A stretch of DNA of 64,000 bases, taken from contig JAQTOU010000004.1 of assembly GCA_028713125.1 (NCBI GenBank), forward strand, positions 1 through 64,000, read 5' to 3'. Positions 20,552 to 58,000 of the stretch are shown one piece after another. Below the pieces are notes generated by a model. It saw only the letters and a list, made by a program, of their open reading frames with translations, did no database searches and was not told where the DNA came from. A program made the translations under genes and the position numbers. Origin of the DNA: Elusimicrobiales bacterium (lineage in GTDB: Bacteria; Elusimicrobiota; Elusimicrobia; Elusimicrobiales; UBA9959). The first letter of the stretch is position 1. Every line of letters starts with the position of its first letter.

Positions 20552-20638
20552 AATCACGGGTCGGGAATCACGAATCGGGAATCTTGAAGGAGCGGAACTC
20601 CATTAAGAACGGCCCGGTCCCCGATTCCCGACTCTTCG
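20552..20638. repeat. GATTCCC heptamer repeats, inverted clusters
   Basis: On the minus strand 20552-20583 reads as four to five seven-base units (GATTCCC, GATTCGT, GATTCCC, GACCCGT). A second cluster in the opposite orientation (GTCCCCGATTCCCGACTC) lies at 20618-20635. TCGGGAATC (20575-20583) and GATTCCCGA (20623-20631) can pair as a 9-bp stem, so the block may also end sucD-side transcription. The same heptamer family is found within the radical SAM gene at 45021-45111. Confidence 0.7.
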
Positions 20639-37329: not shown

Positions 37330-39957
37330 ATGTCATATACAGGTATTTCCCGGATACTTTCCGGAATTCGCGGCTTGCGGCCGGGGGAAAATTCCCCTGT
37401 CCCCTCTCCTTTATGCGTCCCGCGTCCTTCGCCGGCGGGGCGCCGCGCCGGCGTTACCCTTGTCGAACTTATGATCGCGGTGGCGATACTCAGCATAGGC
37501 ATAGCCGGCCTGGTGCAGTCTTTCGGCTTCATACAAAAGGCCGTGCAAGGCTCCAAGAATAAAACCCTGGCTTCCAACCTGGCCCAGGAAAAGATGCAGA
37601 TCCTTAAGCAAAAAACCTATTACCAGGTTCTGGTCACTTCCGACCCCTCCCACAACACCACGGATTTTCCTCCGGAGGACCTGGCCTACGATACCGGCTA
37701 TTTCCCGCCCGAAACCATAGTCGAGGCGGGCGTATCCTATACGCGGTACACCTATATACAGGCTCTCAGGGAGGATTCAGGGGAGCTTGTGGATATAGCC
37801 CCGACCGTGATGGACACCGGTATAAAGCGTATTACCGTGCATGTGGTCTGGGGCTACGGGACGGGCAGGAAAAAAGTCACGATGCGCAGCATGGTTTCCA
37901 ATCCGGAAACGGTGATGGCTAATGTCGCCTATACCGGCACGATACTCACGACCGGCTCGGCGCCCATACCCAACGCCCTGGTAGGGCTTATAGAGTCTCC
38001 CGGCTGCTCCGATACCTCGAACTCGCTGGGCGTCTATTATATGAACGGAACTCCCGGAACCTATACCCTGCAGGTTACGGCCACCGGCTATTACCCGCTG
38101 CTTCTTAGCGTCGTTGCCGCCGCCGCCGAAACTAAAACCAACGACATCACCCTGACAAGGATAGGCACCGGCAGGATAGAGGGTTATCCCTGGATCACGG
38201 ATCACCTGGTCATCAGCCAGGTGGTGGGCAGCACTATCGATACGGCCGTCACTCCTAATTTCGACCAGGAGTACGTGGAAGTTTTTAATCCCACTACCTA
38301 TACCTGGACGATGAACGGCAATATCGGACTTAAATTCCAGCGTGTCCACGACGGTTCTAAAAAAACGATACAGATGAACTATTTCAGGGACGAGATCCTC
38401 AGCGGGGGGTATTACCTTTTTGCCAATACCGGAACCGTGGTCTCTTACGGGATGACCATGGACGCGGACGCCGTCTGGTCCGCCGCCAACACCGTCGCCG
38501 ACTTTCCTCATTTCGCCGCTCAGAACAATGTGATCCCCGTCGCCGAAGAGGGCGGCGGCGAGGGCTGCGCCGCGCTGGAACTCTACCGCATCCCCGACGA
38601 CTCCACCCTGGACCAGCTGGGCTGGAACAGGAACAATGACAGCAAAACCGCGCCTTTCTATGAAAACAACCCATTAGACCAGGGCATGGGCCTTAACCGG
38701 AATGAAACCTATGGCAGGAAAACCAGCACTGCCGGCGCCACTTCCACCTACGGCCCCGCCTACGATTCGAATGACAATGAAGAGGATTTCTACATTTCCC
38801 AGCCGGGCTACTATGCTGAAAACAATTCTCTTATGGCCGCCAAGCCGGTCATCTCCGGAACTCCCGCGGTAGGCGCCGTAGCTACCTGTTCGGACGGCCT
38901 TTCGGCCTATGCCGAGGCAGTCAATACCGGGAGCCATCCCTACGCGTATTTCAACGTTGTCAATGTTGCCACGGGGACCTGGGATGTGCTTATTACCAGC
39001 GGGGCTTACAGTCTTGAGCAGACCTCGGTTCCTGTAACTGCCGCAGGTTCGGTATATACTTTTTCCAGCAGTTCCACCTTCCTGACCCAGATCGACGACC
39101 GGGGCATCGTTGCCGGCCGTGTTCTCAATGTTCTAGGGGGGCCGCTCAACGGGATAGTCGTTACTTCCGGAGGCGCTAATACCACCAATACCGGCTCGGA
39201 CGGCCGCTACCGGCTGAGGGTCGCCCCGGGCATGGTTGATATAACGGCAAACCCTACGGTAGGCGGAACAGCCTCCTACGTGACCCTCACCCAGGATAGC
39301 CTCATGGTAGGCTCCGGCCAGGTCTACTCCGGCGTGGATTTCGTCCTTTACCAGGGCGGGCGGGTAAGCGGCTATATGACAAGGGACGGGGTGAACTCCC
39401 TGCCCGGAGTGGCGGTGGCGATACTCGACGCGAACAGCGTGGCACGAGACCAGCAGGTCAGCGGCACGGACGGTCGCTTCACCTCGGTGGTCCTGTCCAC
39501 GGGCTTCTACACTGTCGCCCCTTCGCTGGGTTCGCTCGAAACCTCCACGCCGCAAACTTCCACTGTTACCATCCTTACTATGGGCGGCACGATCTTTTCC
39601 TCCACTTTCACCATAGGCGGCGCGATGGGGTATGTGACCGGCACGGTGAAATCCGGCGGACAGCCGATACAGACCGGGGTTCTTATCGTGGTCACCACAA
39701 GGACCCTCGCCGGAACTCCTCCTGCGCTGCCGGACCTGAGTATTTCCAATCTTTCCGGGCCGCCTTATTATATGGTTTCCAGCATGGAGAACGGGACCTA
39801 TTCGCTGGAGGTTCGCAACAGCACCAATCCAAAATACAATGTCTACGCTTATTATCCGACGCCTGGCGCGACTACGGTCACGCTGGTCTCTTCAAAGACC
39901 GCGAATGTAAGCGTAACCGCTGGCCAGACCACTTCGGGGGTGGATTTCTCATGGTAA
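37330..39957 (+). CDS. prepilin-like protein fused to lamin-tail and carboxypeptidase-regulatory-like domains
   Basis: 875 residues. A type IV prepilin signature GVTLVELMIAVAILSIGIAG starts at about residue 41, with Gly at -1 and Glu at +5, so a prepilin peptidase should process it; the leader before it is unusually long (about 41 residues, Pro/Ser-rich). Residues 60-195 follow the PilV-like layout. A carboxypeptidase-regulatory-like beta domain follows (about 200-280), then a lamin-tail-like domain (about 285-395: YVEVFNPTT, ILSGGYYLFANTG), then three or more further regulatory-like beta units (about 585-875: IVAGRVLNVLGGPLNGIVV, GTDGRFTSVVLSTG). Pilins normally have 130-200 residues. First of three overlapping or adjacent prepilin genes. 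Confidence 0.8.
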   Translation: MSYTGISRILSGIRGLRPGENSPVPSPLCVPRPSPAGRRAGVTLVELMIAVAILSIGIAGLVQSFGFIQKAVQGSKNKTLASNLAQEKMQILKQKTYYQVLVTSDPSHNTTDFPPEDLAYDTGYFPPETIVEAGVSYTRYTYIQALREDSGELVDIAPTVMDTGIKRITVHVVWGYGTGRKKVTMRSMVSNPETVMANVAYTGTILTTGSAPIPNALVGLIESPGCSDTSNSLGVYYMNGTPGTYTLQVTATGYYPLLLSVVAAAAETKTNDITLTRIGTGRIEGYPWITDHLVISQVVGSTIDTAVTPNFDQEYVEVFNPTTYTWTMNGNIGLKFQRVHDGSKKTIQMNYFRDEILSGGYYLFANTGTVVSYGMTMDADAVWSAANTVADFPHFAAQNNVIPVAEEGGGEGCAALELYRIPDDSTLDQLGWNRNNDSKTAPFYENNPLDQGMGLNRNETYGRKTSTAGATSTYGPAYDSNDNEEDFYISQPGYYAENNSLMAAKPVISGTPAVGAVATCSDGLSAYAEAVNTGSHPYAYFNVVNVATGTWDVLITSGAYSLEQTSVPVTAAGSVYTFSSSSTFLTQIDDRGIVAGRVLNVLGGPLNGIVVTSGGANTTNTGSDGRYRLRVAPGMVDITANPTVGGTASYVTLTQDSLMVGSGQVYSGVDFVLYQGGRVSGYMTRDGVNSLPGVAVAILDANSVARDQQVSGTDGRFTSVVLSTGFYTVAPSLGSLETSTPQTSTVTILTMGGTIFSSTFTIGGAMGYVTGTVKSGGQPIQTGVLIVVTTRTLAGTPPALPDLSISNLSGPPYYMVSSMENGTYSLEVRNSTNPKYNVYAYYPTPGATTVTLVSSKTANVSVTAGQTTSGVDFSW

Positions 39958-40460
39958 AGCGCCTCGGCGTGACCCTGATGGAGATGATGATAGTCGTGGG
40001 CATAGTGTCCACGATGTTCATGGTCGCCGCGCCCATAATGAACCAGGCCAATAAGATGTTCATCATGACCCGCACGAAACTCGAACTTCAGCAGGAGGCG
40101 CGCGGCGTCATGTACATTATAACGCGCAATCTGCGCCAGGCGCAGTCCGATACCATCGTTATCAGCCGCGCCAATGCCAACCAGCCTTTTTATTCAAAGA
40201 TAGCGTTCACCACGGAACAGAGCAGCACCACCGCGGTCTCTAATTCTCTCGTCTTCCAGCAGGAAGGAACTGTCCTGTACCAGCTCATAAAAGGCAATAA
40301 GCGCGTTCTGAGCAGGAACCTGAATTACCTCGCTTTTACCTTTCCGCGTTCGGATGAGCTCGGGATAGTTTCTGTTTCCGTGACGCTCAGAAAGAATATC
40401 TATGAGGGCAGGTCAAAAGCGCTGCATATGGCTTCGGAGAAGGTGCGGGTGATGAACTAG
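39951..40460 (+). CDS. prepilin-like protein (PilW/GspJ type)
   Basis: 169 residues with a short basic leader (MVKRL) and prepilin helix GVTLMEMMIVVGIVSTMFMV, Glu at +5. The body (VMYIITRNLRQAQSDTIVIS, LVFQQEGTVLYQLI) is typical of minor pilins of the PilW/GspJ group, which initiate pilus assembly. It overlaps the preceding gene by seven bases, so the two are translated together. Confidence 0.85.
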   Translation: MVKRLGVTLMEMMIVVGIVSTMFMVAAPIMNQANKMFIMTRTKLELQQEARGVMYIITRNLRQAQSDTIVISRANANQPFYSKIAFTTEQSSTTAVSNSLVFQQEGTVLYQLIKGNKRVLSRNLNYLAFTFPRSDELGIVSVSVTLRKNIYEGRSKALHMASEKVRVMN

Positions 40461-40467
40461 GGGGCTT

Positions 40468-42081
40468 ATGAAAAAGAAAAAAGGCTTTCTCCTTGTCGGC
40501 GTGCTTTTTGTTTTCCTTTTCCTGATGATAATCGTGCCGGTGATGGTGAAGTGGATACAGAACGACACAAAGATCTCGGTAAAGGACCAGAAATCCAGCT
40601 TCGCTTTCTCCCTCGCCGAAGCCGCCGTGGACAGGGGCTACTGGAAGGTGAAGTCCTCCACTATAACTTTTGCAAGCGTCATGGACGGCCACACGCTTCC
40701 GGGCTATAACTTCGACTCGAAATATACCGATATCTCCGGCGGCAACTACCGCGTGAGCGTCACTTCCGGGCCCGGAGCCGGCCAGGTCACCATAGTAGGA
40801 GAAGGCCGCGACTGGCAGAATAAAGAAACCCGTGCTATTAAAGCGATTTTTACCAATACCAGCGTTTCCGGCGCCATAATCGCGGGCGGACTGTTGAGCG
40901 CAACCGGCGCCAGCGTTGTCCACTGGGGCCCTATCATGGCCATGGGAGATATCACCGTCAGCGGCTCCGCCGCCACTAACGGTTTTCCGCGCAAGCTGGC
41001 CAGGCAGACGGTCAAACCTTTCGATCCTACCGGCGACACCAATCCGCCCAATACGGACAGCCTTGAATGGTGGTCTAATTATAATGTGCCGGAGCTGCCG
41101 GTGTTCGATTTCACCGCTATGCGCTCCTCAGCAGCCCAGACCGGTACGCTTAACTGCGATGATGTGACCATCACCTCCACCACCTATGGCACTGAAACGG
41201 TATATAGAGGCAGCGGCTGCAGTGACCCAGGTTCCCATTGCTCCTGCGCCGATAACAAATGGGCGGGTAGCGGTTGTACCGACAGCGGCTCCAACTGCTC
41301 CTGTTCCGGTTCAGGTTCAAGCAAAGTCTGCTCCGGCTCCGGCTGCACCGGCCCCTCCGGAGTCAATTGCGTCAATACCCCTAAAACATGCTCCGGCAGC
41401 GGCTGCTCCGACAGCGGCGCCAACTGCGACGCCGTGATCTTGGTAACCACTAATACCGCCAACGTTACCGGCATGAACTGCTGCAGCTCGGTCTACTATG
41501 GCGGGCCGGTCACCTGCTCTTATGGCGGAACCGGCTGCACCGACTGCAAACTGCAGAACCTTTACGATAATGCCGCGCTGCGGGACAAGGATTATACCTG
41601 GTACTGGGACAAGAATGTCGACTGGTCAGGCAAGAACGGCTTGCGCGGAACCATCATCGTGCGCGGCAACCTCGGGATAACTGGCGGCGACTATTATTGT
41701 AAAGACTGCGTTTTACCGGTCCCGCCTTCCGCCTGGCAGGAATACCAGAAAATTGATACCAGCGATACGGACGAGTACCCTGGCGACCTGGGCCTGAAGA
41801 GCAATGCCTCCACCTACCAGATGGGTTCCTGCGGCGTCACCTGCGAGGGCGGGCCGCTTGGGGCGGACCTGGGCGTTTACGGCTTCCTCTATGTGGGCGG
41901 AGACTTCAACCGGGCCGGTGACTCCGACGTTTTCGGGGCAATGTGGGTGGTTGGAGACGTCAGCGGCGCCGGAAATACCATGCTTTTCTACAATTCTAAT
42001 CTCCAATTGCCGACCCTGAACGTAGTCCTGATAAAAGACTCCTGGCTGGAACAGAAGCCAAGTACTGTAGTCTGGCCGTAA
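40468..42081 (+). CDS. PilX/GspK-like exported protein with Cys-rich repeats
   Basis: 537 residues. MKKKKGFLLVGVLFVFLFLMII is a prepilin-like N-terminus but the +5 Glu is not present (the helix reads GFLLVGVLF), as in some PilX/GspK-like members. Residues 60-230 are beta-rich. Residues about 245-355 contain four to five copies of a GSGC(S/T)DSGSNC-like motif and more than 20 cysteines, which suggests disulphide-stapled loops outside the cell. A C-terminal beta-helix-like part (about 385-520: GTIIVRGNLGITGG, GFLYVGGDFN, GAMWVVGDV) follows. Seven bases separate it from the PilW-like gene. Confidence 0.75.
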   Translation: MKKKKGFLLVGVLFVFLFLMIIVPVMVKWIQNDTKISVKDQKSSFAFSLAEAAVDRGYWKVKSSTITFASVMDGHTLPGYNFDSKYTDISGGNYRVSVTSGPGAGQVTIVGEGRDWQNKETRAIKAIFTNTSVSGAIIAGGLLSATGASVVHWGPIMAMGDITVSGSAATNGFPRKLARQTVKPFDPTGDTNPPNTDSLEWWSNYNVPELPVFDFTAMRSSAAQTGTLNCDDVTITSTTYGTETVYRGSGCSDPGSHCSCADNKWAGSGCTDSGSNCSCSGSGSSKVCSGSGCTGPSGVNCVNTPKTCSGSGCSDSGANCDAVILVTTNTANVTGMNCCSSVYYGGPVTCSYGGTGCTDCKLQNLYDNAALRDKDYTWYWDKNVDWSGKNGLRGTIIVRGNLGITGGDYYCKDCVLPVPPSAWQEYQKIDTSDTDEYPGDLGLKSNASTYQMGSCGVTCEGGPLGADLGVYGFLYVGGDFNRAGDSDVFGAMWVVGDVSGAGNTMLFYNSNLQLPTLNVVLIKDSWLEQKPSTVVWP

Positions 42082-42770: not shown

Positions 42771-43586
42771 ATGAAACAGGTGAAAAAGGCTCCTGACGCC
42801 TTTTCAGGAAGCGTGGGCCTGGCGATAGCGGGTTTTGGGGTGGAATTTAAATCGGACCAGCCGGGTATCATTTCTGTTTTGAAAAACCGGTATCCCGAAT
42901 TCGCTTCTGCAGCGGCCGCGGGCCATAGGTTTGAAACTTTTGAGGTTTCCGGCAGGCAAAACCCGTTCAAACCTGCTGTCGTTCTGAGCGGGAGCTCTTT
43001 GAAAATAAAGCGCGGTGATTTTGAAGGGGTTTTAGACCTGGGAAAAGGTTCAGGAACGCTGAAAGCCGCCCCGAACGAGCAGTGCCTTGACGCTTTTTTG
43101 CGCTCTTTGATAAGTTTCCTGCTCCTCCGCTCCAGCGGCTTTATGCTGCACTCTGCCGGGCTGGTGAAAAAAGGCAAGGCTTACTTGTTCCTGGGCAAGT
43201 CCGGCGCCGGCAAGTCCACGCTCTCGAAACTGGCGGCCGCTTCCGGGGCCGAAGTTGTTAGCGACGAGATAAACCTTCTTCGTTTTGAAAAGGGCCACTT
43301 CCGCGCTTATGGCTCGCCTTTCTGGGGCGAGATGCGGTCCGACGGCAGGCAGGGAAATTGGCCTTTGGGAGGGATCTTCCTGCTGAAAAAGGCCAAGATC
43401 AACCGCGTTGGAGAAGTAAGGGCCGGGGAGGCTCTTAAGCTGCTTCTGCGCTGCCTTGTAAATTTTGACAAAAGTCACGCCGCGGCGGAGCTTGTGCTTA
43501 AGAACGCTTCCCGGCTGCTGGCAAAGGCTGAATTCAGCCGCTTGGAGTTTTCAAAAGCTGATGGCAGTTTCCTGGGCTTAATATGA
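42771..43586 (+). CDS. HprK-like kinase of a peptide-modification cassette
   Basis: 271 residues. The C-terminal half matches the catalytic domain of HPr kinase/phosphorylase-related proteins: LHSAGLV, Walker A LGKSGAGKST (142-150 for GKSGAGKST), VVSDEINLL (D165-E166) and PFWGEM with LGGIFLLKKA. The N-terminal DRTGG-like HprK domain is missing; a novel 100-residue region replaces it. Such short HprK-like proteins occur in RiPP and related clusters with PqqD proteins; in some lasso-peptide clusters they phosphorylate the precursor's C-terminal Ser. ATG 42771 is chosen over an upstream GTG/ATG overlapping adk. The 3' end overlaps the PqqD gene by four bases. Confidence 0.85.
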   Translation: MKQVKKAPDAFSGSVGLAIAGFGVEFKSDQPGIISVLKNRYPEFASAAAAGHRFETFEVSGRQNPFKPAVVLSGSSLKIKRGDFEGVLDLGKGSGTLKAAPNEQCLDAFLRSLISFLLLRSSGFMLHSAGLVKKGKAYLFLGKSGAGKSTLSKLAAASGAEVVSDEINLLRFEKGHFRAYGSPFWGEMRSDGRQGNWPLGGIFLLKKAKINRVGEVRAGEALKLLLRCLVNFDKSHAAAELVLKNASRLLAKAEFSRLEFSKADGSFLGLI

Positions 43587-43852
43587 ACCTACAAATCAGA
43601 AAAGACCTGGCCTACAGGCGCATAGCCGGCGAGCTGTTTATCGTTGATTCCGCTAAAGCAGAAATGCACGAGCTCAACGGCCCGGCCGCGCTTATCTGGG
43701 AAGGTCTGGCGGCCGGCAAAACCGAAAGATCGCTGATTTCCGCCATAACGGCGGAATTCGAAGTTGACGAAAAGACAGCCTGCGAGGACCTGGAAGCTTT
43801 TCTCAAAACGATGCAAAAGGCGGGGCTTGTTTCTTCCGTGCAGCCGCGGTAA
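43583..43852 (+). CDS. PqqD-family peptide chaperone (RRE)
   Basis: 89 residues with the PqqD winged-helix layout: start IRKDLAYRRIAGELFIVDS, then LNGPAALIWEGLAAGKTE, LISAITAEFEVDEKTACEDLEAFLKTMQKAGLV. PqqD-type proteins bind the leader of a ribosomal peptide and present it to a radical SAM enzyme. It overlaps the kinase gene (ATGA) and is followed, 13 bases on, by the 45-residue peptide that is the likely ligand. Confidence 0.9.
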   Translation: MNLQIRKDLAYRRIAGELFIVDSAKAEMHELNGPAALIWEGLAAGKTERSLISAITAEFEVDEKTACEDLEAFLKTMQKAGLVSSVQPR

Positions 43853-43865
43853 AAGGGTTCCTTAT

Positions 43866-44003
43866 ATGAAAAAGAAAAAAACTTACGAAAAGCCTGAAAT
43901 TAAGACGGAAAAGGTCTTTGAGACCGCCGCTTTGGCCTGCGGCAAGTGCCAGAGCGGGCCTATAAGCCAGCTGGCCTGCAAGTCGCTTAAGAAAGTTTCA
44001 TAA
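43866..44003 (+). CDS. 45-residue putative RiPP precursor peptide
   Basis: An ATG at 43866 opens 45 codons: a very basic start (MKKKKT), a YEKP segment (residues 7-10), a VFE segment (17-19), then a core with three cysteines (C25, C28, C38) in LACGKCQSG and QLACKS and a C-terminal Ser45. YxxP in the leader is the element read by PqqD-like RRE proteins in lasso-peptide pathways. CxxC plus a third Cys is common in peptides crosslinked by radical SAM enzymes. Position (between PqqD and peptidase genes, near the SPASM enzyme) and composition support the call; short size makes it easy to miss. No ribosome site stands out (TTCCTTAT), so expression may be coupled to the PqqD gene. Confidence 0.75.
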   Translation: MKKKKTYEKPEIKTEKVFETAALACGKCQSGPISQLACKSLKKVS

Positions 44004-44008
44004 GCGGC

Positions 44009-44329
44009 ATGGTCTCCTCTTTCCGGCTGGAAGGTTCAAGCATGCTCCCGGTCTTCAAGCCCGGGGAGTTTGCTATTGTCCTTTCAAAACGCCCTGCGGC
44101 CGGAGACTGCGCGGTTTATGAATATGAAGGCCGAATTTTGCTCCACCGGGTTTTAAAAACCGGGCCGGAAGGCGTCTGGTTCGCCGACGACGCCGGCCGG
44201 CTCGAGCCACACCTTGTCGCCTGGGAAAAAGTGCGCGGCAAGGTTGCAAGCGGCCACCCGCTTGCCGGCGGCCTCTGCGGCCGTCTTTATTCCGGGATAC
44301 GCCGCGCTATCTCCCCGCTGTTCATCTAG
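44009..44329 (+). CDS. minimal S26 (Ser/His) signal-peptidase-like protein
   Basis: 106 residues. LEGSSMLPVFKPGE carries the S26 catalytic Ser (S11, before Met), and ILLHRVLK puts His46 where bacterial signal peptidase I has the catalytic Lys. Ser-His is the archaeal/ER (S26B) arrangement. There is no N-terminal membrane anchor and only a weak hydrophobic C-terminus. It starts five bases past the precursor-like peptide and ends ten bases before the radical SAM gene, so it most likely trims or processes that peptide. It could also be an S24/LexA-like relative, but no DNA-binding domain is present. Confidence 0.8.
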   Translation: MVSSFRLEGSSMLPVFKPGEFAIVLSKRPAAGDCAVYEYEGRILLHRVLKTGPEGVWFADDAGRLEPHLVAWEKVRGKVASGHPLAGGLCGRLYSGIRRAISPLFI

Positions 44330-44339
44330 GCAGACCTCT

Positions 44340-45413
44340 GTGACACCTGAAATACCCGCAAAACTTAACGCGCTCACGCTGGGGCTCTCCATCCCGGTTT
44401 CCTTGACTTTGGAACTGACGCGCCGCTGCCCTATGGCCTGCCGCCACTGCTATTTGCCGGAAACGCGCGGCCGGGCAAAGCCAACCCGGGAGCTGAAGAC
44501 AGCCCAATGGAAGAGGATCCTGGCGCAGTTGGCAGAGGCTGGGGCGCTTTACCTGGTTTTCACAGGCGGGGAGCCGCTTTTGCGTCCGGACCTGGCCGAG
44601 CTCTGCGCCTATGCCAAAGAACTTCGGTTCGACGTCCGTATTTTCTCAACGGGTTCGGATTTAACTCCGGAACTTGCCTCTGAATTTAAGAAAGCCGGTG
44701 TCTCCGGTTTTGAAATAAGCTTTTACGGCAAACCCGCCCTGCACGACTCCGTTACAGGGGTAAAAGACTCTTTCAAGCGCAGCCTGGCCGCGGCCCGCCT
44801 GCTCAAGGCGGCCGGTATAAAAGTGAAATTAAAAACCCCGCTGATGAAAAAAAACGCGGCCCAGGCCGTCTGGCTCAAAGAATTGGCGAAAACAGAGGGT
44901 TTTGAGATCTCTTTCGACCCGACCATAACCTCCGCGAACGATGGAGACAATTCGGCTCTTAAGTTGCGCCTCTCCGGCCCCAAACTGGCAAAAGCCGTAA
45001 AATTTCTCTCTCCTTCCCCTGATCTTCGATCTTCGATTTTCGATCTTCGATTCCCGTCCCCCGATCCTCGATCTTCGATTCCCGATTCCCGATCCCCGAT
45101 TCTCGATTTTTTATGCGGCGCCGGCCGCAATGTCTGCGCCGTAGGGCCCGGAGGCGAGCTTTATTCCTGCCTGCAGGTCCCTGTAAAGCTCGGCGACCTT
45201 ACGAAGCGGAAATTCGCGGATATCTGGAAAAATTCACCCTGGCTTAAAAAGTGGCGCAGGGCGGGGGTAAAAGACTTAAAAGGCTGTGTTTCGTGCGCCG
45301 ATATAGATTTTTGCAGCCGCTGTCCCGGAGTAAGCCTGATAGAGGAGGGCGATATTCTGGCCCCGAACCGGCCCGCCTGTGAAATGGCGAAAATTATGCG
45401 CGCTTCGCAGTGA
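44340..45413 (+). CDS. radical SAM/SPASM peptide-modifying enzyme
   Basis: 357 residues from a GTG start. Radical SAM motif CPMACRHC (C30, C34, C37), then FTGGEPLLRPD (GGE-type SAM contact) and FSTGSDL. The C-terminal SPASM domain has CGAGRNVC, YSCLQVPVKLGDL and KGCVSCADIDFCSRC with a final Cys, the pattern binding auxiliary 4Fe-4S clusters in peptide maturases. Between core and SPASM lies a variable linker encoded by 13 heptamer repeats (45021-45111), so insertion or loss of one unit would shift the reading frame. The open frame continues 42 codons upstream of GTG 44340, inside the peptidase gene; the GTG fits spacing better. Confidence 0.9.
   Translation: MTPEIPAKLNALTLGLSIPVSLTLELTRRCPMACRHCYLPETRGRAKPTRELKTAQWKRILAQLAEAGALYLVFTGGEPLLRPDLAELCAYAKELRFDVRIFSTGSDLTPELASEFKKAGVSGFEISFYGKPALHDSVTGVKDSFKRSLAAARLLKAAGIKVKLKTPLMKKNAAQAVWLKELAKTEGFEISFDPTITSANDGDNSALKLRLSGPKLAKAVKFLSPSPDLRSSIFDLRFPSPDPRSSIPDSRSPILDFLCGAGRNVCAVGPGGELYSCLQVPVKLGDLTKRKFADIWKNSPWLKKWRRAGVKDLKGCVSCADIDFCSRCPGVSLIEEGDILAPNRPACEMAKIMRASQ
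45021..45111 (+). repeat. 13-unit heptamer repeat inside the radical SAM gene
   Basis: Thirteen consecutive seven-base units of consensus GATYYYC (GATCTTC, GATTTTC, GATTCCC, GATCCTC and one GTCCCCC) run without interruption through the coding sequence. Seven is not a multiple of three, so slippage by one unit would change frame. The current copy number keeps the SPASM domain in frame. Encoded residues are SPDLRSSIFDL-like low complexity. Confidence 0.9.
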
Positions 45414-45585: not shown

Positions 45586-46032
45586 ATGAAACTGAACCGC
45601 ACTTTAGCCTACGGCCTCGCCTGCCTTCATTATCTGGGGCAGAATAACGGCGGAGCGTGGAACCAGGTGGGGAATATTTCAAAGTTCCAGGGCCTGCCCC
45701 CGGCGTACTGCAATAAAGTTCTGCAGGCCCTGGTGCATGCCGGTTTCGTAGAATCGCAGAAGGGGAAAGGCTACCGCCTGACCAAAGAGCTCGACGATAT
45801 CAGCGTCTGGGAACTGATGGAGTCCTTCACTTTCAACGGCGCGCCCAAGGCCGACAGAAAACAGATTTCAATAAAGCTGTACGAAAAACTGCGCGAGGAA
45901 GTGAACCACTGGCTGGTGGGCCTGAGCGTGCAGGATATCATCGAAATGATGAAAGAAGAAGAAAGGCATAAAGAAGAGGAAAAGAAAAAGAGCGCGAAGC
46001 CGCAATTAAGCGGCGGCGCGGCTGGAGAATAG
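45586..46032 (+). CDS. Rrf2-family transcriptional regulator
   Basis: 148 residues. The N-terminal winged helix-turn-helix is typical: LNRTLAYGLACLHYL, then PPAYCNKVLQALVHAGFVESQKGKGYRLTK. The [Fe-S]-binding cysteines found in IscR/NsrR (three in residues 90-105) are missing, so it should sense something other than an Fe-S cluster. The C-terminal tail is Lys/Glu-rich (KEEERHKEEEKKK). The open frame begins earlier (45487) but the ATG at 45586 fits the family start. The stop lies 14 bases from the giant gene, so it is probably in one operon with it. Confidence 0.88.
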   Translation: MKLNRTLAYGLACLHYLGQNNGGAWNQVGNISKFQGLPPAYCNKVLQALVHAGFVESQKGKGYRLTKELDDISVWELMESFTFNGAPKADRKQISIKLYEKLREEVNHWLVGLSVQDIIEMMKEEERHKEEEKKKSAKPQLSGGAAGE

Positions 46033-46045
46033 AGGCAAAAGGATC

Positions 46046-49000
46046 ATGTTCCCCAGGAACGGCCCCGAAAAAGAGAGAGTGAAACGCGGAGTGAATCCGC
46101 GCGGTCTTTCTTTTGGCCGCCTGATGAGCATGGCTCCAGTGCGGCACTGCCACAGGCTTGCCGGGGTTTTCCTGTTTTTAGCCTTCTTTATTCATCCTTC
46201 GGCCCTTCTCCGCGCCGATACCCGCATCAAGACCGTAGAATATAATTTCGGCGGCTATTATTCCAATACGGACAAGGCTTCCGCCTCCCAGAATACTTTT
46301 CCCACCCGCGCCATAAAACTGCCCGAGAACGGCAAGACCATCCGCAGCGCCTGGCTGTCCTACGAAGGTATCGCCGTAAGCGCGATAAACGTCAATCCCC
46401 TGGTCATATATTTCGACGCCGCCGCCTCCGCCACCACCGCCCGGTTTACCTCGGCGCAATACACCGTTCAGAGCGGCGAGTCCATCAGGCTTTTCGCCCG
46501 GGCCGACGTTACCGCGGCCATCCAGGCGCAGGTCGGGAACCTGGCCGCCGGCGTCAACTTCACCGCCGGCGTGAAGATAACCGGCCCGGCCAGCAACATG
46601 CACACCATGAAGCTGTATGTGACCTATGAATACGACGACCAGTCACCGCTGCAGGTAAAAACCGTGCGCTTCCCGCTCTACTCCAACTATGCCAGCGGCA
46701 TAGCCGCCTATACGGCGCAGCAGGCGGCCGGCACGATGACCATGCAATACCTGGCCGAGATAGCGGATACCGGCTACGCCCTCCAGCAGCAGTGGGTGGA
46801 AATAAAAGGCTTCCGCCAGTCCGCCGGCTCCACCACGGACGGAACCATCTACGCCCGCATCGGGACTTCGGCGGTGGAGCCCACCCTTAACATGGACGGC
46901 TCGCTGCGCGACTCCTATGAGTTCCGCTATCTTTCCAATTCCACCGTAATGGCCGGCTTCTCCACCGGAACCGTGCAGAACCTCGGTATTACGACCGTCC
47001 GGAGTCCGATAAATACTCTTAGCGGCGAGGTGGTCCTCACTTATATCGCCAACGCAAATTCCCCGGTTAAGACCAAAACCTCGAAGACCTTTGTGGGCCA
47101 GGGGCTTGCTGCCGTTACGGACGCGGTCCTCAGCGACCCGCTTTTCCTCAGGGAGGAGGGGGTGGTGATAAAGCGCGCCTATGCGCGCATCGTGGGAACC
47201 TTCGACTCGGCCACTCTCACTAATATGCCGGTGGATTCCTCGGTGGGCGGCTCGGCCATGCCCCAGGTCAGTTACGCCATACAATCGCAGGCCGCCCAGA
47301 TCTCCGGCTACCAGTTCTATCACGATATGACCGCGGCCGCTATCGCCGGCTGGACCAACGGCGCTGTCGTGGCTTCGACTATAACCGCCGCCGGCGCCAC
47401 CGGCGCGCACGGCATGGAAATGACGGTGACCTACGACTATACCAATGACGCCGCCCATACCGACGACTACGAGGTGCTCGCGGGCAACGACACCCTGGGC
47501 ACCGTGCCCAGCTCCGCTTATTCTTTCGGCGCTTATTACCCGGAGGTCAACGGAACGAAGATCATGAGGGAAGCTTATGTCTATACTGACTTCCTGAGCA
47601 ATAGCGCGACTCAGGACCCCAATACCACGATAAACTTCAACGGGAACTCCCCGGAGACCGCTTATCACCGCACCGTTACCGAGAGCTCCACGCTTAACCA
47701 GTTCTACCAGAACGTGGTGGAGTTCAGCACTTTCCCGGCCGTGGTCAGGGCCAATTACGCGCTCAGCTCGGCCGCCGGGGTCATGGGCGGGCGGGCGGCG
47801 ATAAATTACAGCTTCATTCCTTTCCCCAAACTGCCGGATACGCTGGCCCAGAAGAAGCCTGGCGGCTCCGCTCTGCCGGACGGGACCTACATCAACGGCG
47901 CGACGGTGCGGTTCGACGGCGTTATGGCCAGCTCCATGACGGTAGACAATATGTATTTTGTGATAGAGGCCAAGCCGAACGCCTCCGCGTTCAACGGCCT
48001 TGGGCTCTCCACCGGGGCCCTCGTCGCGCAGGCCGGCGGCGTCCCCGTGGCCGGGACTTTGGACATCGGCGGCCTGGTCTCCGGCACGGTCTACAAATGG
48101 CGGGCCAGGGTGCTCGGCGACGGCGGAGCCGGCTACTGGAAAGAATATAATTCCTATCCCGCTTTCGGCATCGACCTCTCCAGCCCGCCCGCCCCGGCCA
48201 TGGCCGCCATTGTCCCGGCGGCGAACGTGAACCTTAACGCCGTGCCCGCTCTGCTGGATTGGGAGGATGTGACCGATATAGACGGTTCGGGATTGAAGAA
48301 TTACGAGCTGCAGGTGGCCACCGCCGCCGACTTTACCACTATCGCCTACAGCTCCAGCCCGTTGGCCTCCATGGCGCGGCCGACGGTCTTTGTGCAGAAC
48401 CCCTACTACTGGCGCGTGCGCGCGCTGGACAACGCCGGCAACACGGGGCTCTATTCCTCAACACGCTTCTTCCGCGTCGACCTGTCCACGCCGGTCATCG
48501 TCTCCAATATGGGGGCCGGCGACCAGGCCTGGCGCAATGTGAACAATGGCGTCTATGATGTGGACTTTAACGACGCCGGCGGGTCCCTGATCAAGAAGTT
48601 CCAGGTGCGCGCCACCTCGGGGCCGGCGCAGACCGGTACCGATTTCAGCGGCGGCTGGGTGGACGTCCCTCTTACTATAGACGCCACTTTCTACAATACG
48701 GACTGGGCCCTGCCGGCCGGTTTCTGGGCCGGCCTGCAAAGCTGGACCACTAACTATATCTCCGTACAGGCCGTGGATTATGCGTCAAATACCGTTACTC
48801 TTTCCGACGCTTTCAAGGTGTTCAAAGATACCGCGGCCCCGGCTTTCACCAACGGCGAGGCCGGGGGGGACCTGACCTGGAGGAAAACAGGCAGGAGCTA
48901 TAATGTGGACTTCGCCGACCCGTATTCCAGGCTGGCCGGCGCGGTTTACGCGGCCCGCGCCTCCGCCGGAGGGGCCGGCGCGGTGCTCTTCTCCACAACG

Positions 49001-52000
49001 GCGCTCTCCGGAGTTTCCGGGGCTTCCTATACCGCGGACTGGGCGCTGAACTTCACAGGCCTGGCCGGCGACTCCACTAACTATATCACGGTGGAAATCT
49101 ACGACATAGCCGGAAATACCACCACCATCACCGACGCCTTCAAGGTGCTGAAGGATACCACGCCGCCTTCCTATATTAACGGAGAGGCCGGCGGCGATAT
49201 CGTCTGGCGCAAGAACGCGCGCAATTATAATTTCGACTTCAGCGACGGGGCTTCCTGGCTGAACGGCGCGGTTTACGCCGCCCGCCTCGCCCCCGGCGGA
49301 ACCGGGGCCATGCAGGTTTCCACCGCGGCGGTCTCCGGGGTCTCCGGGGCTTCCGCCCCGGCTGACTGGGCGCTTAATTTCACCGGCCTGGCGGGGGATT
49401 CCACCAACTACATCACGGTGGAATTCTACGATATAGCCGGAAATACCACCACCGTGACCGACGCTTTCAGGGTGCTCAAGGACACCACCCCGCCCTCCGT
49501 GCCGTCCCTCGTCTCCCCGGCGGACGGCTATAAGACGAACAATGCGAACCTTGATTTCGACTGGGGCGATTCGGCCGATAATGCTTCGAAGACCCTTAAT
49601 TACCTGCTGCAGCTGGCCACCTCCACCGATTTCACCACTATTTCCTATTCCAGCCAGCCCGCGGTGTCCGCGGCCTCGGTGCCGCTGGCCGCGGAGAGCA
49701 CTTATTACTGGCGCGTGGCCTCAAGCGACACGGCCGGTAACTACTCGAATTTCAGCGCCTGGCGCTCCATGCTGGTGGACCTCTCCACCCCTTCCATCAC
49801 CGACAACCAGTCCGGGGACGCGAAATGGCGCAATACCAATAACGGCCTTTATAATATTACCTTCAATGACGCCGGCGGTTCGCTTCTGTCCTACTTCCAG
49901 ATCAAGGTCACCTCCGGCCCTTCGCAGACCGGAACCGTCTTTTACGACTGGGTGAACGTCGCGGCGGGCATAAATTCCTCCTCCTACGGCTCTTCCTGGG
50001 CCCTGCCGGCCCCTGTCTGGGATTCGATACCGAGCGGGACCACAGGCTATGTCTCGGTCAGGGTCTTCGATAATGTGAATAATTCCTCCGCTTCGGCCAG
50101 CCACCTGTTCTATGTGCTGAAAGATACCGTGCCGGCGGTCATAACCGACGCGCAGGGCGGGGACGACGCCTGGCGCAACGCCAACCCCGGCGATATTTAT
50201 AATGTCTCGTTCGGCGACGCGGGCGGCTCAAAGCTGGACAGCATCCAGTATATTGCCTGGACCGGCGCCGGCCAGACCGGGACAAAGAAACTGGACTGGA
50301 CCTATATTTCCTCCGGTCCGGCAAGCGTTTCCTCCTACCCCGGGCCGTGGGGCGTCTCCGCTTCTTCCTGGACGGCCCTGGCCGAGGGGGGGAACTATAT
50401 TTCCGTGCGCGCCTGGGACGTGGCGGGGACCACCACCGCCCTCGACGACGTTTTTTATGTTAACAAGGACACCACCGCGCCGTACGCGCAGAATAACCAG
50501 GCCGGGGGCGACGCCTCCTGGCAGAAAGACCCGGGCAAACTCTACGACGTGAATTTCTACGATACCGGCGGGTCCCAGCTGAACGCCATAGAATATTCCA
50601 TCTGGTCGGAGCGCGGCGGGAAAGGAACGCTCAGGAAGGATTGGTACCCGGTAGTCGCCCCCCCGGCCGGAACCGGCTCATACCTGAACGACTGGGCCGT
50701 CGATTTCGCTTCCCTGGCCGAGGGCCAGGCCACCAACTATGTTTCGGTGCGCTTCACCGACCTGGCCGGAAATACCTCCACCTATGCGGACGCCTTCTAT
50801 ATAAGCAAGGACAAGACGCTGCCGGTCATAGTGGACAGCCAGTTCGGCGACGACAACTGGCGCGCCTCCTCCGGCACGGCCTATAACGTGGGCTTCACCG
50901 ACGCCGGCGGCTCCCTTCTTTCCAGCTTCGAACTTAAAATAACCTCCGGCCCCGGCCAGAGCGGAACCCTCATACAGGATTGGGCGGCGCAGCAGGGCTC
51001 GATAAATTCCGCCTCTTACGCCGCCGGCTGGAAACTGACCCAGGCGCAGTGGAACGCGCTGCCCGCCGGCATCTCCTATGTCTCGGCCCGCGTGAGCGAC
51101 AATGCCTTGAACCAGCAGGCCAAGGACGATATTTTCTACGTGCTCAAAGACACCTCCGCCCCGGCCATAGCCGACGGCCAGGCCGGCGATGACGCCTGGC
51201 GGTCTTCCAACAGCGCGGCCTATAATGTCCATTTCGCCGACGCCGGCGGCTCCCTCCTCTCGGCGTTCCAGGTAAAGATCACCACCGGCCCCGGCCAGAC
51301 CGGGACGCTCGTCGCCGACTGGTCCGACGTGGCGTCCGGCATGAACGCCGCGTCTTATGACTCTGACTGGCAGCTGACCGGGGCGCAATGGAACCTGCTC
51401 AGGTCCGGGATAAACTATGTCTCGGTGCGGGTCTCGGATTATGCCGGGTCCACCGTTACGCTGGCCGACGCTTTCTACGTGCTGAAGGACACTTCCACCC
51501 CCGTAATAACCGACGGCCAGGCCGGCGACGACGCCTGGCAGCGCTTCGGCGGCAAGGCCTATAATGTCGATTTCGCCGACGCCGGTTCCGGCCTGTCCAA
51601 TGCCGCTTACGAAGCCTGGGACGGCCCCGGCAGGACGGGGAATAATACTGTTTCCCTGAGGGATATCCCGGGCGTCTCCGGCGCCTCCTACACAGCCGAC
51701 TGGGCGGTTGATTTCGCGCTGCTTGCGCAGGGCACCAATTATATAAGCGTAACGGCCGCCGACGCCCTGGGCCAGACGGCAACGCTCGAGGATGTTTTCT
51801 ATGTGCTTAAGGATAATGTCTCCCCTTCCATTACCGACAGCCAGGCCGGGGACGATAACTGGCGCAAAGCCGACCCGGGCGCCGTCTACAATGTCGACTT
51901 CGCCGACCTGACCTCCGGTCTTACCACGGCGCAGTACCGCATAACCACCCTGCCCGCGCAGGGCGGGACCGTCCTGAAGGACTGGTCCGATATAGTTTCG

Positions 52001-55000
52001 GCGCCGGCCGGGATCCCCTCTTACGCCGCCGACTGGGGCGTTGATTTCAATTCCATCCCGAGCGGCTCCACGGGCTATGTGAGCGTGCGCGCTTACGACA
52101 AGTCGGATAACCCGGCCCAGGTGAACGACGCTTTTTATGTGCTGAAGGATACGGTAGCCCCGGTGATAGTCAACTATCAGGCCAAGTACGGGCCCTACGC
52201 CTCCAACCCCAACGCGGTGATCGACGCGGACTTCTTCGACGCGGGCGGCTCCGGGATAAACACCGCGCAGTATAAGGTAAATACCGGGCCCGCTCAGGGC
52301 GGAGCGCTGGTCAAGGACTGGACCAATATAGCCGCGCTGGCGGGCGCCACCTACTATACGCAGCTCTGGGACGTGGACTTCTTCGCCCTGGAGACCCAGC
52401 CCGCCACCAACTATTTCTCGCTGCGGGTGACCGACCTCGCCGGCAATACCTCATCGTATATCGACGCTTTCAGGCTTTTCCGCAGCACTTACCCGCTGGA
52501 GATAGTCAATAACCAGGTCCCGGACGGCGCCTGGTATACCGCCTATGATCCCGGCAAACTGTATGACGTGGACTTCGACAGCCTTGAGAACGGGGTCAAC
52601 CTGAGTTCCTTCGCGGTGCAGGCCTGGACCCTGCCGGGCCGCACCGGCGCGATGACCGCCGGCTTTACGAAGGTCCTGGACATTAACGCGACTTATTATT
52701 ACACCGACTGGGCCCTCCCTCCCGCCGTCTTCGACCTGCTAGCCGACGGCACGAATTACATCTCGGTACGCCTCTGGAACGTGAACAATACCAGCGCCAC
52801 GCTGGAAGACGTGTTCTATGTTAAGAAAGACACCACCCCGCCCGCCGTGACCGACCTGCAGGGCGGGGACAATACCTGGCGCGCGGCCGCGGGCTCGGTT
52901 TATAATGTCGACTTCGCCGACCTGGGGTCGCGGCTGACCACGGCGCAGTACCGGATCTACAGCCAGGCCGGCCAGGCCGGCCAGCTTATCAAAGACTGGA
53001 CGGACATAGTAAGCAATCCCGCCGGGCAGCCCTCCTATACGGCTAACTGGCCGGTGGACTTCAACGCGCTGCAAAGCTGGACCACCAGCTATGTCTCCGT
53101 AAGGGCTTTCGACCAGGCCGGGCTTTCCTCCTCCGTTAACGATGTCTTCTATGTGCGCAAGGATACCACGCCGCCCACCTCCGCCGATAACCAGGCCGAC
53201 GCCTCTTCCTTCCTTTCCGCCAATACCGGGCTTTACAATGTGGATTTCGCGGACCCGGGGTACGAGTCCGGCCTGCTGAAAGCGCAGGTGCGCGTCTCCA
53301 CCCACCAGGCCAGCGCCCCGCCTTACCTGCTTGACTGGACCGACGCGCTCGCTCTGTCCGGCAGGACCTATTCCTCGGACTGGGCCCTGCCGGCGGCGGC
53401 CTGGGACGAGCTCCCCAGCGGCGTCACCGCCTATGTATCGGTGCGCGTGCAGGACGCGGCCCTGCTTTCAAGCGATACCTATAACGTCTTCACCGTGTGG
53501 AAGGACACGGCGGCTCCGGAAGTAGTGGTCAACCAGGCCGGCGACGACGCCTGGCGGCTTACCGACCCCGGCGCCGTCTACGACGTGGACTTCAAGGACC
53601 TGGAGTCCGGCGCCGCCACCGCCCAGTACCGCCTCTATTCGCAGCCGGGGCAGGGAGGTACTCTGCTCAGGGACTGGACCGATATCTTCAATAATCCCGG
53701 CGGTACCGCGAACTACGCGGCCAACTGGGGCGTGTCTTTCGCGGCGGCCATAGAGGGGGAGAACTATGTGACCGTGCGTGTCTTTGACCGGGGCGGCCTC
53801 TCCGCCGCGGCGCAGGACGCTTTCTACGTGCGCAAGGACACCACGCCCCCGGTCATCGTGAACGGGCAGGCCGGGGATTATTCCTGGCGGGGCTCGCCCG
53901 GCGCCGTTTACAATGTGGACTTCTATGACAGGTCCTCCGGGCTTTCCGCGCTGGAGTACAGGGTCAGCACGGCGCCCGCGCTCGGCTACCCGGTAAGTTC
54001 CTGGCAGGCGCTGGATATCCTTACCGGCTATCCCACCTACTATACGGATAACTGGTCCGTGCTCTTCTCCACGCTGGCCGAGAACACTACCAATTATATT
54101 TCGGTCCGCGCCTACGACCGGCTGGGCCTGGTTTCCGTTTCCAGCGACGTTTTCAAGGTCTTCAAGGACGTGACCCCGCCCTCCGTCTCCGACAACCAGG
54201 TGGGCGACGACAGCTGGCGGAACTCCTCCGGCACCGTTTACAATGTGCAATTCGGGGACGAGGGCGGCTCCCGGCTGGATAAATTCCAGGTGCGCCTGGT
54301 CACCGGCCCGGCGCAGCTCGGCACGGTCATCGCCGACTGGACCGATATGGCCCTTGATATCAATTCCACTTATTATTCAATGCCGTGGACCCTGCCTTCC
54401 GGCCTCTGGTCGCTCCTGCCGCAGGGGCAGACCTATGCTTCGGTGCGGGTGTACGATAAAGCCGGGAACGAGCGTGAATTGTCAGACCCTTTCTATGTGC
54501 TTAAAGATACCACCCCGCCGGCCATTAACAACTTCCAGGGCGGCGATACGGCGTGGCGCGCGGCGAACACCGCGGTTTATGACGTGCGTTTCGCCGATAC
54601 CGGCGGCGCGCTTCTGCAGCAGGTAAAAGCGAAGCTGGCCACCCAGCCCGGCCAGGCCGGGACCGTTCTTGCGGACTGGACTCCGGTACTGGAGGGCATC
54701 GACGCGGCCTCTTATTCCACGCCCTGGCCGCTGACCGCTGGGCTCTGGAACTCGATACAGAGCGGCGTTACCGCCTATGTTTCAGTGGCGGTCTTCGATA
54801 ATTCCGGCTCCAGCGCGACACTGACCGACGCTTTCTATGTGCTGAAAGATACAGTCGCGCCCGCCTACACCGACGGCCAGTCAGGCGATGCCGTCTGGCG
54901 CAATGCCAATTCGGGATTTTACAGCGTCGCTTTCGCGGACGCCGGCGGCTCTCTTCTTTCCAGGGTTCAGGTGAAAGCCTCGAGCGGGGCCGCCGGAACC

Positions 55001-58000
55001 GGCGCCGCAGCCTTCGGGTATACGGATAATGCGGCGGGAATAAATTCCGCTTCCTATCCCGGCCCCTGGTCTTTGGCCCCCGGCCTGTGGGACCTGCTGC
55101 TGCCCGGGACCAATTATATTTCAGCGCGCGTCCAGGATAATGCCGGAACCTATGCGGAGGTGACCGACGCTTTCTACGTGCTCAAGGATACCCAGAACCC
55201 GTCGGGAACTCTTTCGCCGCCCGCCTTCGCCGGCTCGCTCGGCTTTAACGTGGCGTATTCCACTTCCGACGCGGGCCCTGCCGGCGGCGCTTACGTGAAA
55301 CTTTACTATACCTACTCTGCCCAGGTCCCGTATTCCTGGACGCAGTTCGGCCCGGCTTTCAGCTCGAGCCCTATCGCCTTTACCGCCCCGTCGGGGGGGA
55401 ACGCGGGCTTCAGGCTGGTGGTTTACGACAAGGCGGGCAATAAGGACGAGACCGACCCGCCCGGAACCGACACCGCCCCGGAAGCTTTCACCTCGGTGGA
55501 CCTGACCGCCCCGGCGGCCATCAACAACCAGCCCGGCGACAATGCCTGGCGCAATTCCGCCGGGACCGTTTACAACGTAGATTTCAGCGCGGCCGGCGGC
55601 TCCCTGCTTTCTGCAGCGCAGTACAAGGTCACTTCCGCCGCGGCCCAGGGCGGGACGGTGCTCAAGGACTGGACGAACATAGCTTCCGGCATCAACGCGG
55701 CCGACTATACGGCCGATTGGGCGGTGGATTTCTCGGCCCTTAAATCCAGTTTCAACTATGTGAGCGTACGCGCCTGGAACCTGGCCGGAACCACCGCCAC
55801 CGTGAACGACGTGTTCTATATCAAGAAGGACACTGAAGCCCCGGTTTTCGTCAACAATCAGCCCGGCGACGACACCTGGCGCTCCTCCGGCCCGGGCGCG
55901 ATATACAATGTCGACTTTAACGATCCTTTCTCCCTGCTTTCCAAAGCGCAGTATTCCGCCTCTTCCGCCCAGGGGACCGCTTCCGGCAACCTGAAGGCCT
56001 GGACGGATATAGCGGCCGGTATCTCCGCGGCGTCCTTCACCAATAACTGGGGCGTCGATTTCGCCGCGCTTAATTCCGGGGCCACCTCCTATATCTCGCT
56101 GCGCGCCTACGACCTGGCCGGCAATGTGGCCGTGAGCACCGACACTTTCTATATCCTTAAGGACACCGTGGCGCCCTCCATGGTAAATAACCAGGCCGGC
56201 GACAATACCTGGCGCGCTTCCAACACCGGGCTCTATAATGTGGATTTCGCGGACGCCGGCGGTTCAAAACTTCTGAGCGCCCAGTACAATATCTGGTCCT
56301 CCACCGGCAGGACCGGGGCGGAACTGGCGGCCTGGACGGATATTTCGCCGGCGCCCTCCGGGGACTCTTCCACCGCCGATTGGGCTTTAAGCGCCGGCGC
56401 TTTCACCCTGCTGCAGCCCGGGACCAATTACGTGTCGGTGCGCGTCGCGGACGCGGCCGGTTCCGCCACCACGCTCTCCGACGCTTTTTACGTGCGCAAG
56501 GATATCGCCGGGCCGGTAATTACGAACAACCAGACCGGCGACGACGCCTGGCGCTCCTCCAATAGCGGTTCATACGATGTTGACCTGGAGGACCTGCTTT
56601 CCGGTCTGGGCTCTTTCCAGGTGAAAGTGACTACCGGCCTTAACCAGACTGGTACCGTGCTTGCGGACTGGACCCAGGTTTCAGCCCTCTCCGGGGCGTT
56701 CTATACGGCCGACTGGGCACTGCCTCCGTCCGTCTTTGCCGCAATGCTGGAAGGTTCCAGCTACGTTTCGGTGAAGGCCGCCGACTCGCTTGGGAATGAG
56801 ACCTCCCTGTCCGACGCTTTCTTCGTGAAAAAAGACACCTCCGGGCCTACGATCACGAATAATCAGTCCGGCGACAATGTCTGGCGCAACTCCAATGCCG
56901 GCGTATATAATGTGGACCTGGCGGATAATAGGTCGCTGGTCGCTAAATTCCAGCTGAAGGCTATGACCGGCCCCGGCCAGACCGGGTCGCTGGCCTTCGA
57001 CTGGGCGGACTCGGCCGCCGGGATAAACGCGGCTTCATATACTACGGACTGGACCCTCCCGCAGGGGCAGTGGGACCTGCTGCTCCCGGGAACCAACTAT
57101 ATCTCGCTGCGGGCCTACGACATGGGCGGTTCTTCCTCGTCCCTGGCCGATGTATTCTATGTGCGCAAGGATACCGTCCCGGCGGCGGCGGTAAGCCCTT
57201 TGTCCGCGGTCGTGGCCTCGGAGGGGGCGATAGCCCTTTCCTGGACGGCGCCGGACGACGGCGGTGCCGCGGCCAGCGCCTACCTGCTGAAGGTCTCTTC
57301 CTATATAAACATCGACGCCGGCAATTTCGAAACGGCCGACACTTATCCCCAGGCCTGGGTCCCGGTCCAGCCCGGCTCACCGGAGAGCTATAACCTCACC
57401 GGCCTTGAAACCAACGTGCTCTATTATATCGCGATAAAATCAGTGGACAGGGCGGGGAATGTTTCTGATATTTCAAATACCCCTTCAGCCTTTTCAGGCC
57501 CCGACTCCACGCCTCCCGGGGCTATCTCCGGCCTGGCCGCGCTGCCCGGCGGTTTCGACGGGCAGATCTCGCTCTCCTGGACCGCCGTGGGCGATAACGG
57601 CCTGTATATAGGCACCGCTGCGGCCTACCAGGTGAAGTACCGCACCGACCAGGCCATAACCACCGGCGGTCTCTGGGACAGCGCCGCCGTTTACAGCCAG
57701 GCCTGGGTCCCGCAATATCCCGGCGTGACGGAGTTCCAGACTATAGACGGAATGACCCCGGGAACCACCTATTACTGGGCGGTAAAGACCGCGGACGAAG
57801 CCAATAACACTTCGCCCCTTTCCAACAGCCCGGACGCTTACGCCACCACCGGCCGCGGCACCGACGGCAATCTGATGTACGGCAAAGGGACCGGGAATAC
57901 GCCGTATACGCGCAAGTGGACCCCGCCCAACTTCGAGGCGGAGCTGCCCGGCCTCGCCACTGCCGCGCTCGGAACTTCGGTGGCAAGGCACACTATAGTG

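Follow-up and report, generated by a model that had tools for sequence, protein, structure and literature searches.

A conserved five-gene cassette of Elusimicrobiota predicted to mature a near-invariant three-cysteine peptide

Five genes around a 45-residue peptide

We analysed a 64,000-nucleotide stretch from an Elusimicrobiales bacterium (GTDB lineage Elusimicrobiota, UBA9959; assembly GCA_028713125.1, 3.48 Mb), namely positions 1 to 64,000 of contig JAQTOU010000004.1, called here the window. Positions 42771-45413 hold a cassette of five genes, all on the + strand, centered on a short peptide that has the look of a precursor of a RiPP (ribosomally synthesized and post-translationally modified peptide); SAM below is S-adenosylmethionine:

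42771..43586, +, HprK/PEPCK-fold kinase, predicted to act on a precursor Ser (motifs; weak HprK_rel_A, ScmC and HprK_rel_B matches; AlphaFold2 (AF2) fold)
43583..43852, +, PqqD-family RiPP recognition element (RRE) (Pfam PqqD; best PDB match LppB 9x8z)
43866..44003, +, 45-aa precursor peptide MKKKKTYEKPEIKTEKVFETAALACGKCQSGPISQLACKSLKKVS (phylum-wide occurrence; ratio of nonsynonymous to synonymous polymorphism, pN/pS; invariant residues)
44009..44329, +, predicted S26-like Ser/His(/Asp) leader peptidase (conserved residues, fold)
44340..45413, +, radical SAM/SPASM maturase, GTG start assumed (Pfam Radical_SAM and SPASM)

The kinase and pqqD genes overlap by 4 nt, and gaps of 13 nt (pqqD to peptide), 5 nt (peptide to peptidase) and 10 nt (peptidase to radical SAM gene) follow. 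A sequence-only reading of the window had described five same-strand genes with four-base overlaps or gaps under 15 bases, and the coordinates of the open reading frames (ORFs) bear this out. The adenylate kinase gene just upstream (42128-42766) was rejected as a cassette member, as it was found in none of the other loci.

A search of 341 Elusimicrobiota genomes in 100 genera, mostly metagenome assemblies, found the complete five-gene set at 46 loci besides the window. In these data the cassette belongs to uncultured genomes only. Two gene orders occur: the window's own family has kinase-pqqD-peptide-peptidase-radical SAM, while in the other families the radical SAM gene lies between pqqD and the peptide gene. 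The genes are co-inherited; in a tree of kinase, RRE and radical SAM proteins the families stay together, with same-class families placed beside the window's own, and this agreement with family and class fits mostly vertical descent with losses. A scan of genome contigs with the radical SAM protein as query matched four Elusimicrobiota cassettes, the named relatives being metagenome-assembled genomes of Elusimicrobia; around five further matches, in Kiritimatiellota/Victivallales, family profiles detected no second cassette gene.

Some peculiar loci were also seen: (i) One genome (G011, L130:585-960) has a second, apparently decaying cassette copy, with an intact, in-frame peptide (FETAALACGKC...KKNS) and a peptidase frame that looks broken. 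(ii) A variant system of the same family (L078:3024-5282) has pqqD, kinase and radical SAM genes with a different 47-aa three-Cys peptide (KYEKPKLS...NCGTNAGNC...GGTCNL), and no S26 peptidase was seen in it. (iii) At four loci outside the window's family (L112, L117, L118, L126) an ORF of ~370 aa abuts the kinase gene upstream; at L112, the only one of these searched with Pfam, it bears an HD domain (PF13487), with CCA/polyA-polymerase and ABC ATPase genes farther upstream.

The peptide is under selection and nearly invariant

The sequence-only reading hinged on conservation of the 45-residue ORF at homologous loci, and the ORF is conserved, both at the 46 further five-gene loci and by a peptide profile that matches 54/341 genomes in 25/100 genera, as a single copy in 53 of the 54. 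A weak match in genome G109 was rejected, having no cassette around it. The profile matched 0/388 genomes in a sample of a second phylum, around Kiritimatiellota (a search that had no positive control), and a plasmid search with peptide and peptidase queries gave no matches. Among 33 sequences of the family, pN/pS is 0.23 in the peptide's own frame versus 1.8 in the other two frames, and variable columns number 38/40 at third codon positions versus 18 and 18 at the other positions. The low ratio in its own frame indicates purifying selection on the ORF rather than chance.

Four segments of the peptide stand out among 53 sequences:

43884..43895, +, YxxP leader motif, residues 7-10, predicted to bind the RRE (Y 53/53, P 53/53)
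43917..43925, +, FET, predicted leader cleavage site, cut after Thr20 (Phe 45/53, Glu 53/53, Thr 44/53)
43938..43949, +, C-G-K-C of the core (C, K and C each 53/53)
43977..44000, +, third Cys (Cys38) to C-terminal Ser45, the predicted phospho-acceptor (Ser last in 53/53)

The Tyr, Pro, Glu, a Leu, C-x-K-C, the third Cys and the C-terminal Ser are invariant, and the distance from third Cys to terminal Ser is 7 in 52/53, so that variation in core length is almost confined to the loop between the second and third Cys. Mean pairwise identity is 0.66 for the peptide versus 0.35-0.43 for its four partner proteins. The predicted cut site varies as F/I/L-E-T/Q/K/S around the constant Glu; A-L-A before Cys25 forms an alternative, AXA-type cut site, with A/S/T at -3 and A/G at -1.

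Predicted leader recognition and removal

The closest known parallel is the linear polyphosphorylated peptides (LPP, genes lppA-K-B-S-D-N) of Bacillota (PMC13381572, Nat Commun, May 2026), for which an HprK-like kinase, an RRE and the signal-peptidase-like LppS have been shown experimentally. LppK adds phosphate to core Ser3 several times over, YxxP is bound by LppB, a discrete RRE, and LppS, an archaeal-type signal-peptidase-like enzyme with Ser/His/Asp, cuts after F-3 E-2 T-1 only with LppB (PMC13381572).

The cassette's PqqD protein lies well above the Pfam cut-off (57.4 vs 23.4 bits), and its best PDB match is LppB (9x8z, E 2e-6), ahead of the lasso peptide RREs. Its Asn32, Asp69 and Phe73 align with LppB N33, D70 and F74, which hold the leader Tyr/Pro, and are conserved in 52/59, 58/59 and 56/59 sequences, respectively. 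Set against the LPP leader consensus YxxPxVLxHQxIxFETxxS, the cassette leader has YxxP (53/53) and F (45/53), E (53/53) and T (44/53), while it lacks HQ and spaces Tyr and Thr by 13 residues rather than 15.

The peptidase retains Ser11 (Cys in 9/51), His46 (51/51) and Asp61 (48/51); the keeping of this triad, even through a change of nucleophile from Ser to Cys, argues for catalysis. The possible nucleophile switch (GGCMRP) was seen in the peptidases of L116, L121, L123, L124, L113, L114, L120, L122 and L127. An AF2 model built from an alignment of the window and related loci (predicted local distance difference test, pLDDT, 93.9) has the fold of signal peptidases and LexA, matching SipA (Z 10.7, 83 residues, root-mean-square deviation (rmsd) 1.9), LepB (Z 10.3) and LexA (Z 10.3). 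Type I signal peptidases (S26A) use a Ser/Lys dyad after a membrane anchor, whereas here His46 replaces the Lys, there is no N-terminal transmembrane segment, and the protein begins at the first strand. Taken together, the likeness of the RRE to LppB, its retained leader-holding residues, the YxxP...FET leader and the peptidase triad indicate that recognition and leader removal are probably LPP-like.

The kinase and the radical SAM enzyme

The kinase has a Walker A motif (GKSGAGKST) and an invariant His127 and S-D165-E166 (56-58 sequences). Its AF2 model (pLDDT 94.4, from the same kind of alignment) superimposes on PEPCK (Z 13.3, 233 residues, rmsd 4.3) and matches HPr kinase by Foldseek (E 1.7e-4); PEPCK and HprK share a P-loop fold. 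The predicted structures thus support both the kinase and the peptidase assignments, each of which is sub-threshold by sequence. That the kinase could be the housekeeping HprK was rejected, since a separate one is encoded at contig position 104654.

The radical SAM protein exceeds the Pfam cut-offs for Radical_SAM (86.4 vs 29.5) and SPASM (29.1 vs 21.5), and its CxxxCxxC motif and six SPASM cysteines are conserved in about 52/53 sequences. Together with the RRE and the gene for a precursor, these cysteines give the cassette the features of a radical SAM/SPASM RiPP maturase system, and the three invariant Cys of the peptide mean that the enzyme may form a thioether cross-link of sactipeptide or ranthipeptide type. 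Its gene carries an in-frame repeat between the two domains:

45021..45110, +, heptanucleotide repeat, about 12 x GATYCCC-like

A GATYCCC-like heptanucleotide motif also occurs near 20567-20632.

A proposed maturation pathway

On balance we favor a cassette that matures one ribosomal peptide through RRE binding, radical SAM modification, phosphorylation and leader removal; from the sequences we infer each of these reactions, their order and the product. (i) The PqqD protein would bind the leader through Y7-x-x-P10. (ii) The radical SAM/SPASM enzyme would take the RRE-bound precursor and form a new bond within the core CGKC...C; the likeliest kind is a thioether that involves at least one of the three invariant cysteines. 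(iii) The HprK-like kinase would phosphorylate a Ser, perhaps repeatedly, and most likely the C-terminal Ser45, a choice suggested by its invariance and by the paeninodin kinases. (iv) Leader removal would fall to the S26-like Ser/His peptidase, which would dock via the RRE and most likely cut after Phe-Glu-Thr20, to leave a 25-residue product AALACGKC...S, or alternatively after Ala24. RRE binding and leader cleavage are the most strongly indicated of these steps, and the type of cross-link the least.

Several points weigh against this pathway. By sequence the kinase is a weak HprK_rel_A match (33.8 vs a cut-off of 200) and the peptidase a weak S24/S26 match (17.8 vs 23.3). The radical SAM protein falls below every NCBIfam maturase cut-off, no product class can be called from its sequence, and heme-synthesis radical SAM models score as high on it as peptide maturases do. 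All 53 peptides have Leu at core position +3 after FET, whereas the LPP kinase uses core Ser3, and the phosphate on Ser45 is a prediction by invariance and paeninodin analogy. Two cut sites, after Thr20 and after Ala24, fit the leader, and the cassette contains no exporter. The earlier proposal of a crosslinked and phosphorylated product made by the five genes is supported in part: the evidence favors a conserved five-gene unit for a single peptide, in which PqqD would be the presenting RRE and the Ser/His S26-like protein the leader peptidase, while cross-linking and phosphorylation stay at the level of prediction.

Comparison with known systems

The cassette shares with LPP an HprK-like kinase, a discrete RRE and, beside the RRE gene, a Ser/His/Asp signal-peptidase-like leader peptidase. 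It goes beyond LPP in its radical SAM/SPASM enzyme, three-Cys core, C-terminal Ser and near-invariant inheritance across the phylum; the LPP core is variable and carries its phosphorylated Ser at core position 3, the constant Leu of the cassette peptide. The NTP transferase and MsbA-like exporter of LPP are absent from the cassette and the flanking ORFs scanned. We therefore do not claim LPP membership, given the differing core Ser3, NTP transferase, exporter and core variability, and the added radical SAM enzyme. The sequence-only reading had not recognized the combination with an S26-like peptidase as described; the trio of kinase, RRE and S26-like peptidase turns out to be known from the LPP RiPPs (PMC13381572), and what remains without match in the open-licence literature searched is the addition of the radical SAM/SPASM enzyme, together with the near-invariant three-Cys, C-terminal-Ser peptide. 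In that literature, covering HprK with PqqD and radical SAM proteins, SynChlorMet, and RiPPs of Elusimicrobiota, no description of the cassette was found, which is a weak form of absence.

The foremost alternative, which we think unlikely, is an LPP-type pathway with other targets: the kinase would target a residue other than Ser45, and the radical SAM enzyme would make not a Cys cross-link but, for example, a Lys- or backbone-centered change. Lys27 indeed equals the cysteines in invariance, every one of the 53 peptides has S or T at leader position -11, and the radical SAM protein scores equally with heme and cofactor enzymes; the simpler pathway of a cross-link and a terminal phosphate nevertheless suits a SPASM enzyme paired with three invariant Cys, and a C-terminal Ser that is fixed.

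The kinase-PqqD-S24/S26 trio also occurs without a radical SAM gene on plasmid records of Butyrivibrio and of the Bacteroidota Phocaeicola and Prevotella (L135, L136, L137), the kinase profile matching the Butyrivibrio kinase at 7e-25, so that the trio is spread wider than Bacillota. In the Butyrivibrio plasmid pNP243 (L135) a kinase, a 57-aa YVKP Cys-rich peptide, PqqD and an S24/S26 peptidase stand in a row, like the cassette; it differs in having ABC transporters and a nucleotidyltransferase nearby and an unrelated core.

Paeninodin-type phosphorylated lasso peptides share an HprK-like kinase and a discrete RRE with the cassette, and in paeninodin the kinase target is the C-terminal Ser. 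Neither a lasso cyclase C nor a B2 protease was detected in the window's cassette with Pfam and NCBIfam, and its relatives keep the same five genes. YxxP is common to LPP and lasso leaders, whereas paeninodins use WxxP (PMC13381572). The HPr-rel-A system models, besides HprK_rel_A, include PqqD_rel_X, likewise below cut-off (33.8/200 and 27.1/35).

Like the cassette, SynChlorMet brings together an HprK-like kinase (ScmC), a PqqD-like protein (ScmD) and radical SAM/SPASM enzymes. The cassette differs in its single radical SAM enzyme and its S26 peptidase, and the NCBIfam models score far below cut-offs (ScmC 30.5/125, ScmD 16.6/100, ScmE 84.9/400, ScmF 67.2/400). PQQ (pyrroloquinoline quinone) and mycofactocin systems also act with PqqD and a SPASM radical SAM enzyme on a conserved short peptide, to which the cassette adds the kinase and S26 peptidase; the PqqE and MftC models are below cut-off (118.1/381 and 120.4/265).

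Giant exported proteins and other neighbors

Further features flank the cassette:

37330..42081, +, type IV pilin-like genes (875, 169 and 537 aa; N_methyl domain on the 875-aa protein; synteny)
45586..46032, +, Rrf2-family regulator (Pfam Rrf2, 63 bits), a conserved downstream neighbor in the window's family and class
46046..64000, +, start of a giant exported protein gene that ends at contig position 74302, beyond the window, and co-occurs with the peptide

Most family loci have a relative of the 537-aa pilin-like gene upstream of the cassette, though the pilin-like genes probably stand outside it. The Rrf2 gene accompanies the cassette at most family loci, and also at L127 and L128. The giant gene that follows, to which the sequence-only reading of the cassette had not pointed, is a single ORF of 9,418 codons (9,418 aa), encoding a signal-like segment, an N-domain RIKTVEYNFGGYY, a long Ig-like repeat region, Lamin-tail domains and C-terminal beta-propellers; the next gene encodes a propeller protein with Por_Secre_tail. 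The giant is among the larger bacterial proteins, and related ones in relatives range from 4,000 to >10,000 codons.

The N-domain was found in 25/341 genomes, 23 of which have a peptide match (Fisher p about 1e-18 on peptide profile matches, an overstatement as related genomes are not independent); one of the two others, G004, has kinase and pqqD genes at a contig end. Outside the window's family, 13/14 giant-bearing genomes have the peptide (p about 4e-17, similarly overstated by kinship). Many family members without the N-domain have another giant exported protein at that place (six open frames of 4,556-4,732 codons). Exceptions without a giant neighbor exist (e.g. L061, L064, L071, L075), and the link, though strong, is therefore not strict. 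In three genera (G327, G328, G323) the giant protein has the peptidase as its N-terminal part, and G333 has the peptidase joined to a different exported protein.

A core that hardly varies, the single gene copy and the neighboring giants suggest a stable role for the peptide, at the cell surface or cofactor-like, rather than that of a diversifying antibiotic. More tentatively, and as a possibility rather than an expectation, a radical SAM-modified, C-terminally phosphorylated RiPP fixed by descent may serve the giants as anchor, cross-linker, cofactor or assembly factor instead of serving competition, with RIKTVE-type giant and peptide forming one surface system that is sometimes fused.

It is rather improbable that the peptide gives rise to a small redox or metal cofactor, in the manner of PQQ or mycofactocin, for a partner enzyme or the neighboring beta-propeller proteins. 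Such a role would suit the near-invariant sequence, single copy and vertical inheritance, the mycofactocin and PQQ enzymes among the top radical SAM family matches, and the PQQ_2-type propellers that form the C-terminal end of the giant and that the next gene also encodes. However, PQQ_2/BamB propellers are mostly without PQQ binding, a second set of enzymes to process a cofactor was not seen, and the conserved stretch covers all 21 residues of the core as far as the C-terminus, more than a dipeptide-type cofactor would require.

The peptidase fusions in three genera, with the signal-peptidase fold, raise the idea that the S26-like protein serves the giant alone, as its own signal peptidase, and leaves the peptide untouched. 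We hold this to be less probable still: lacking an N-terminal transmembrane segment, the catalytic domain would be cytosolic; the peptide and peptidase genes are adjacent even where no giant adjoins; and the functional match, LppS, cuts RiPP leaders. Lastly, a chance grouping around an untranslated 45-aa ORF, which might be read from the failure of any Pfam or NCBIfam family model to match that ORF, is refuted by its selection in its own frame only (pN/pS 0.23) and its conservation across the phylum.

Implications

If the favored pathway is true, a single peptide undergoes radical SAM chemistry, phosphorylation of the HprK type and leader removal of the signal-peptidase type within this cassette, and the newly described signal-peptidase-like RiPP systems would be extended beyond Bacillota. 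The combination offers a searchable signature: Y-x-x-P, F-E-T, C-x-K-C, and C-x6-Ser at the C-terminus. Many RiPPs diversify, while this peptide is nearly frozen across a phylum, beside or fused to giant exported proteins; with such a peptide and such neighbors, a RiPP function in cell-surface biology would become directly testable.

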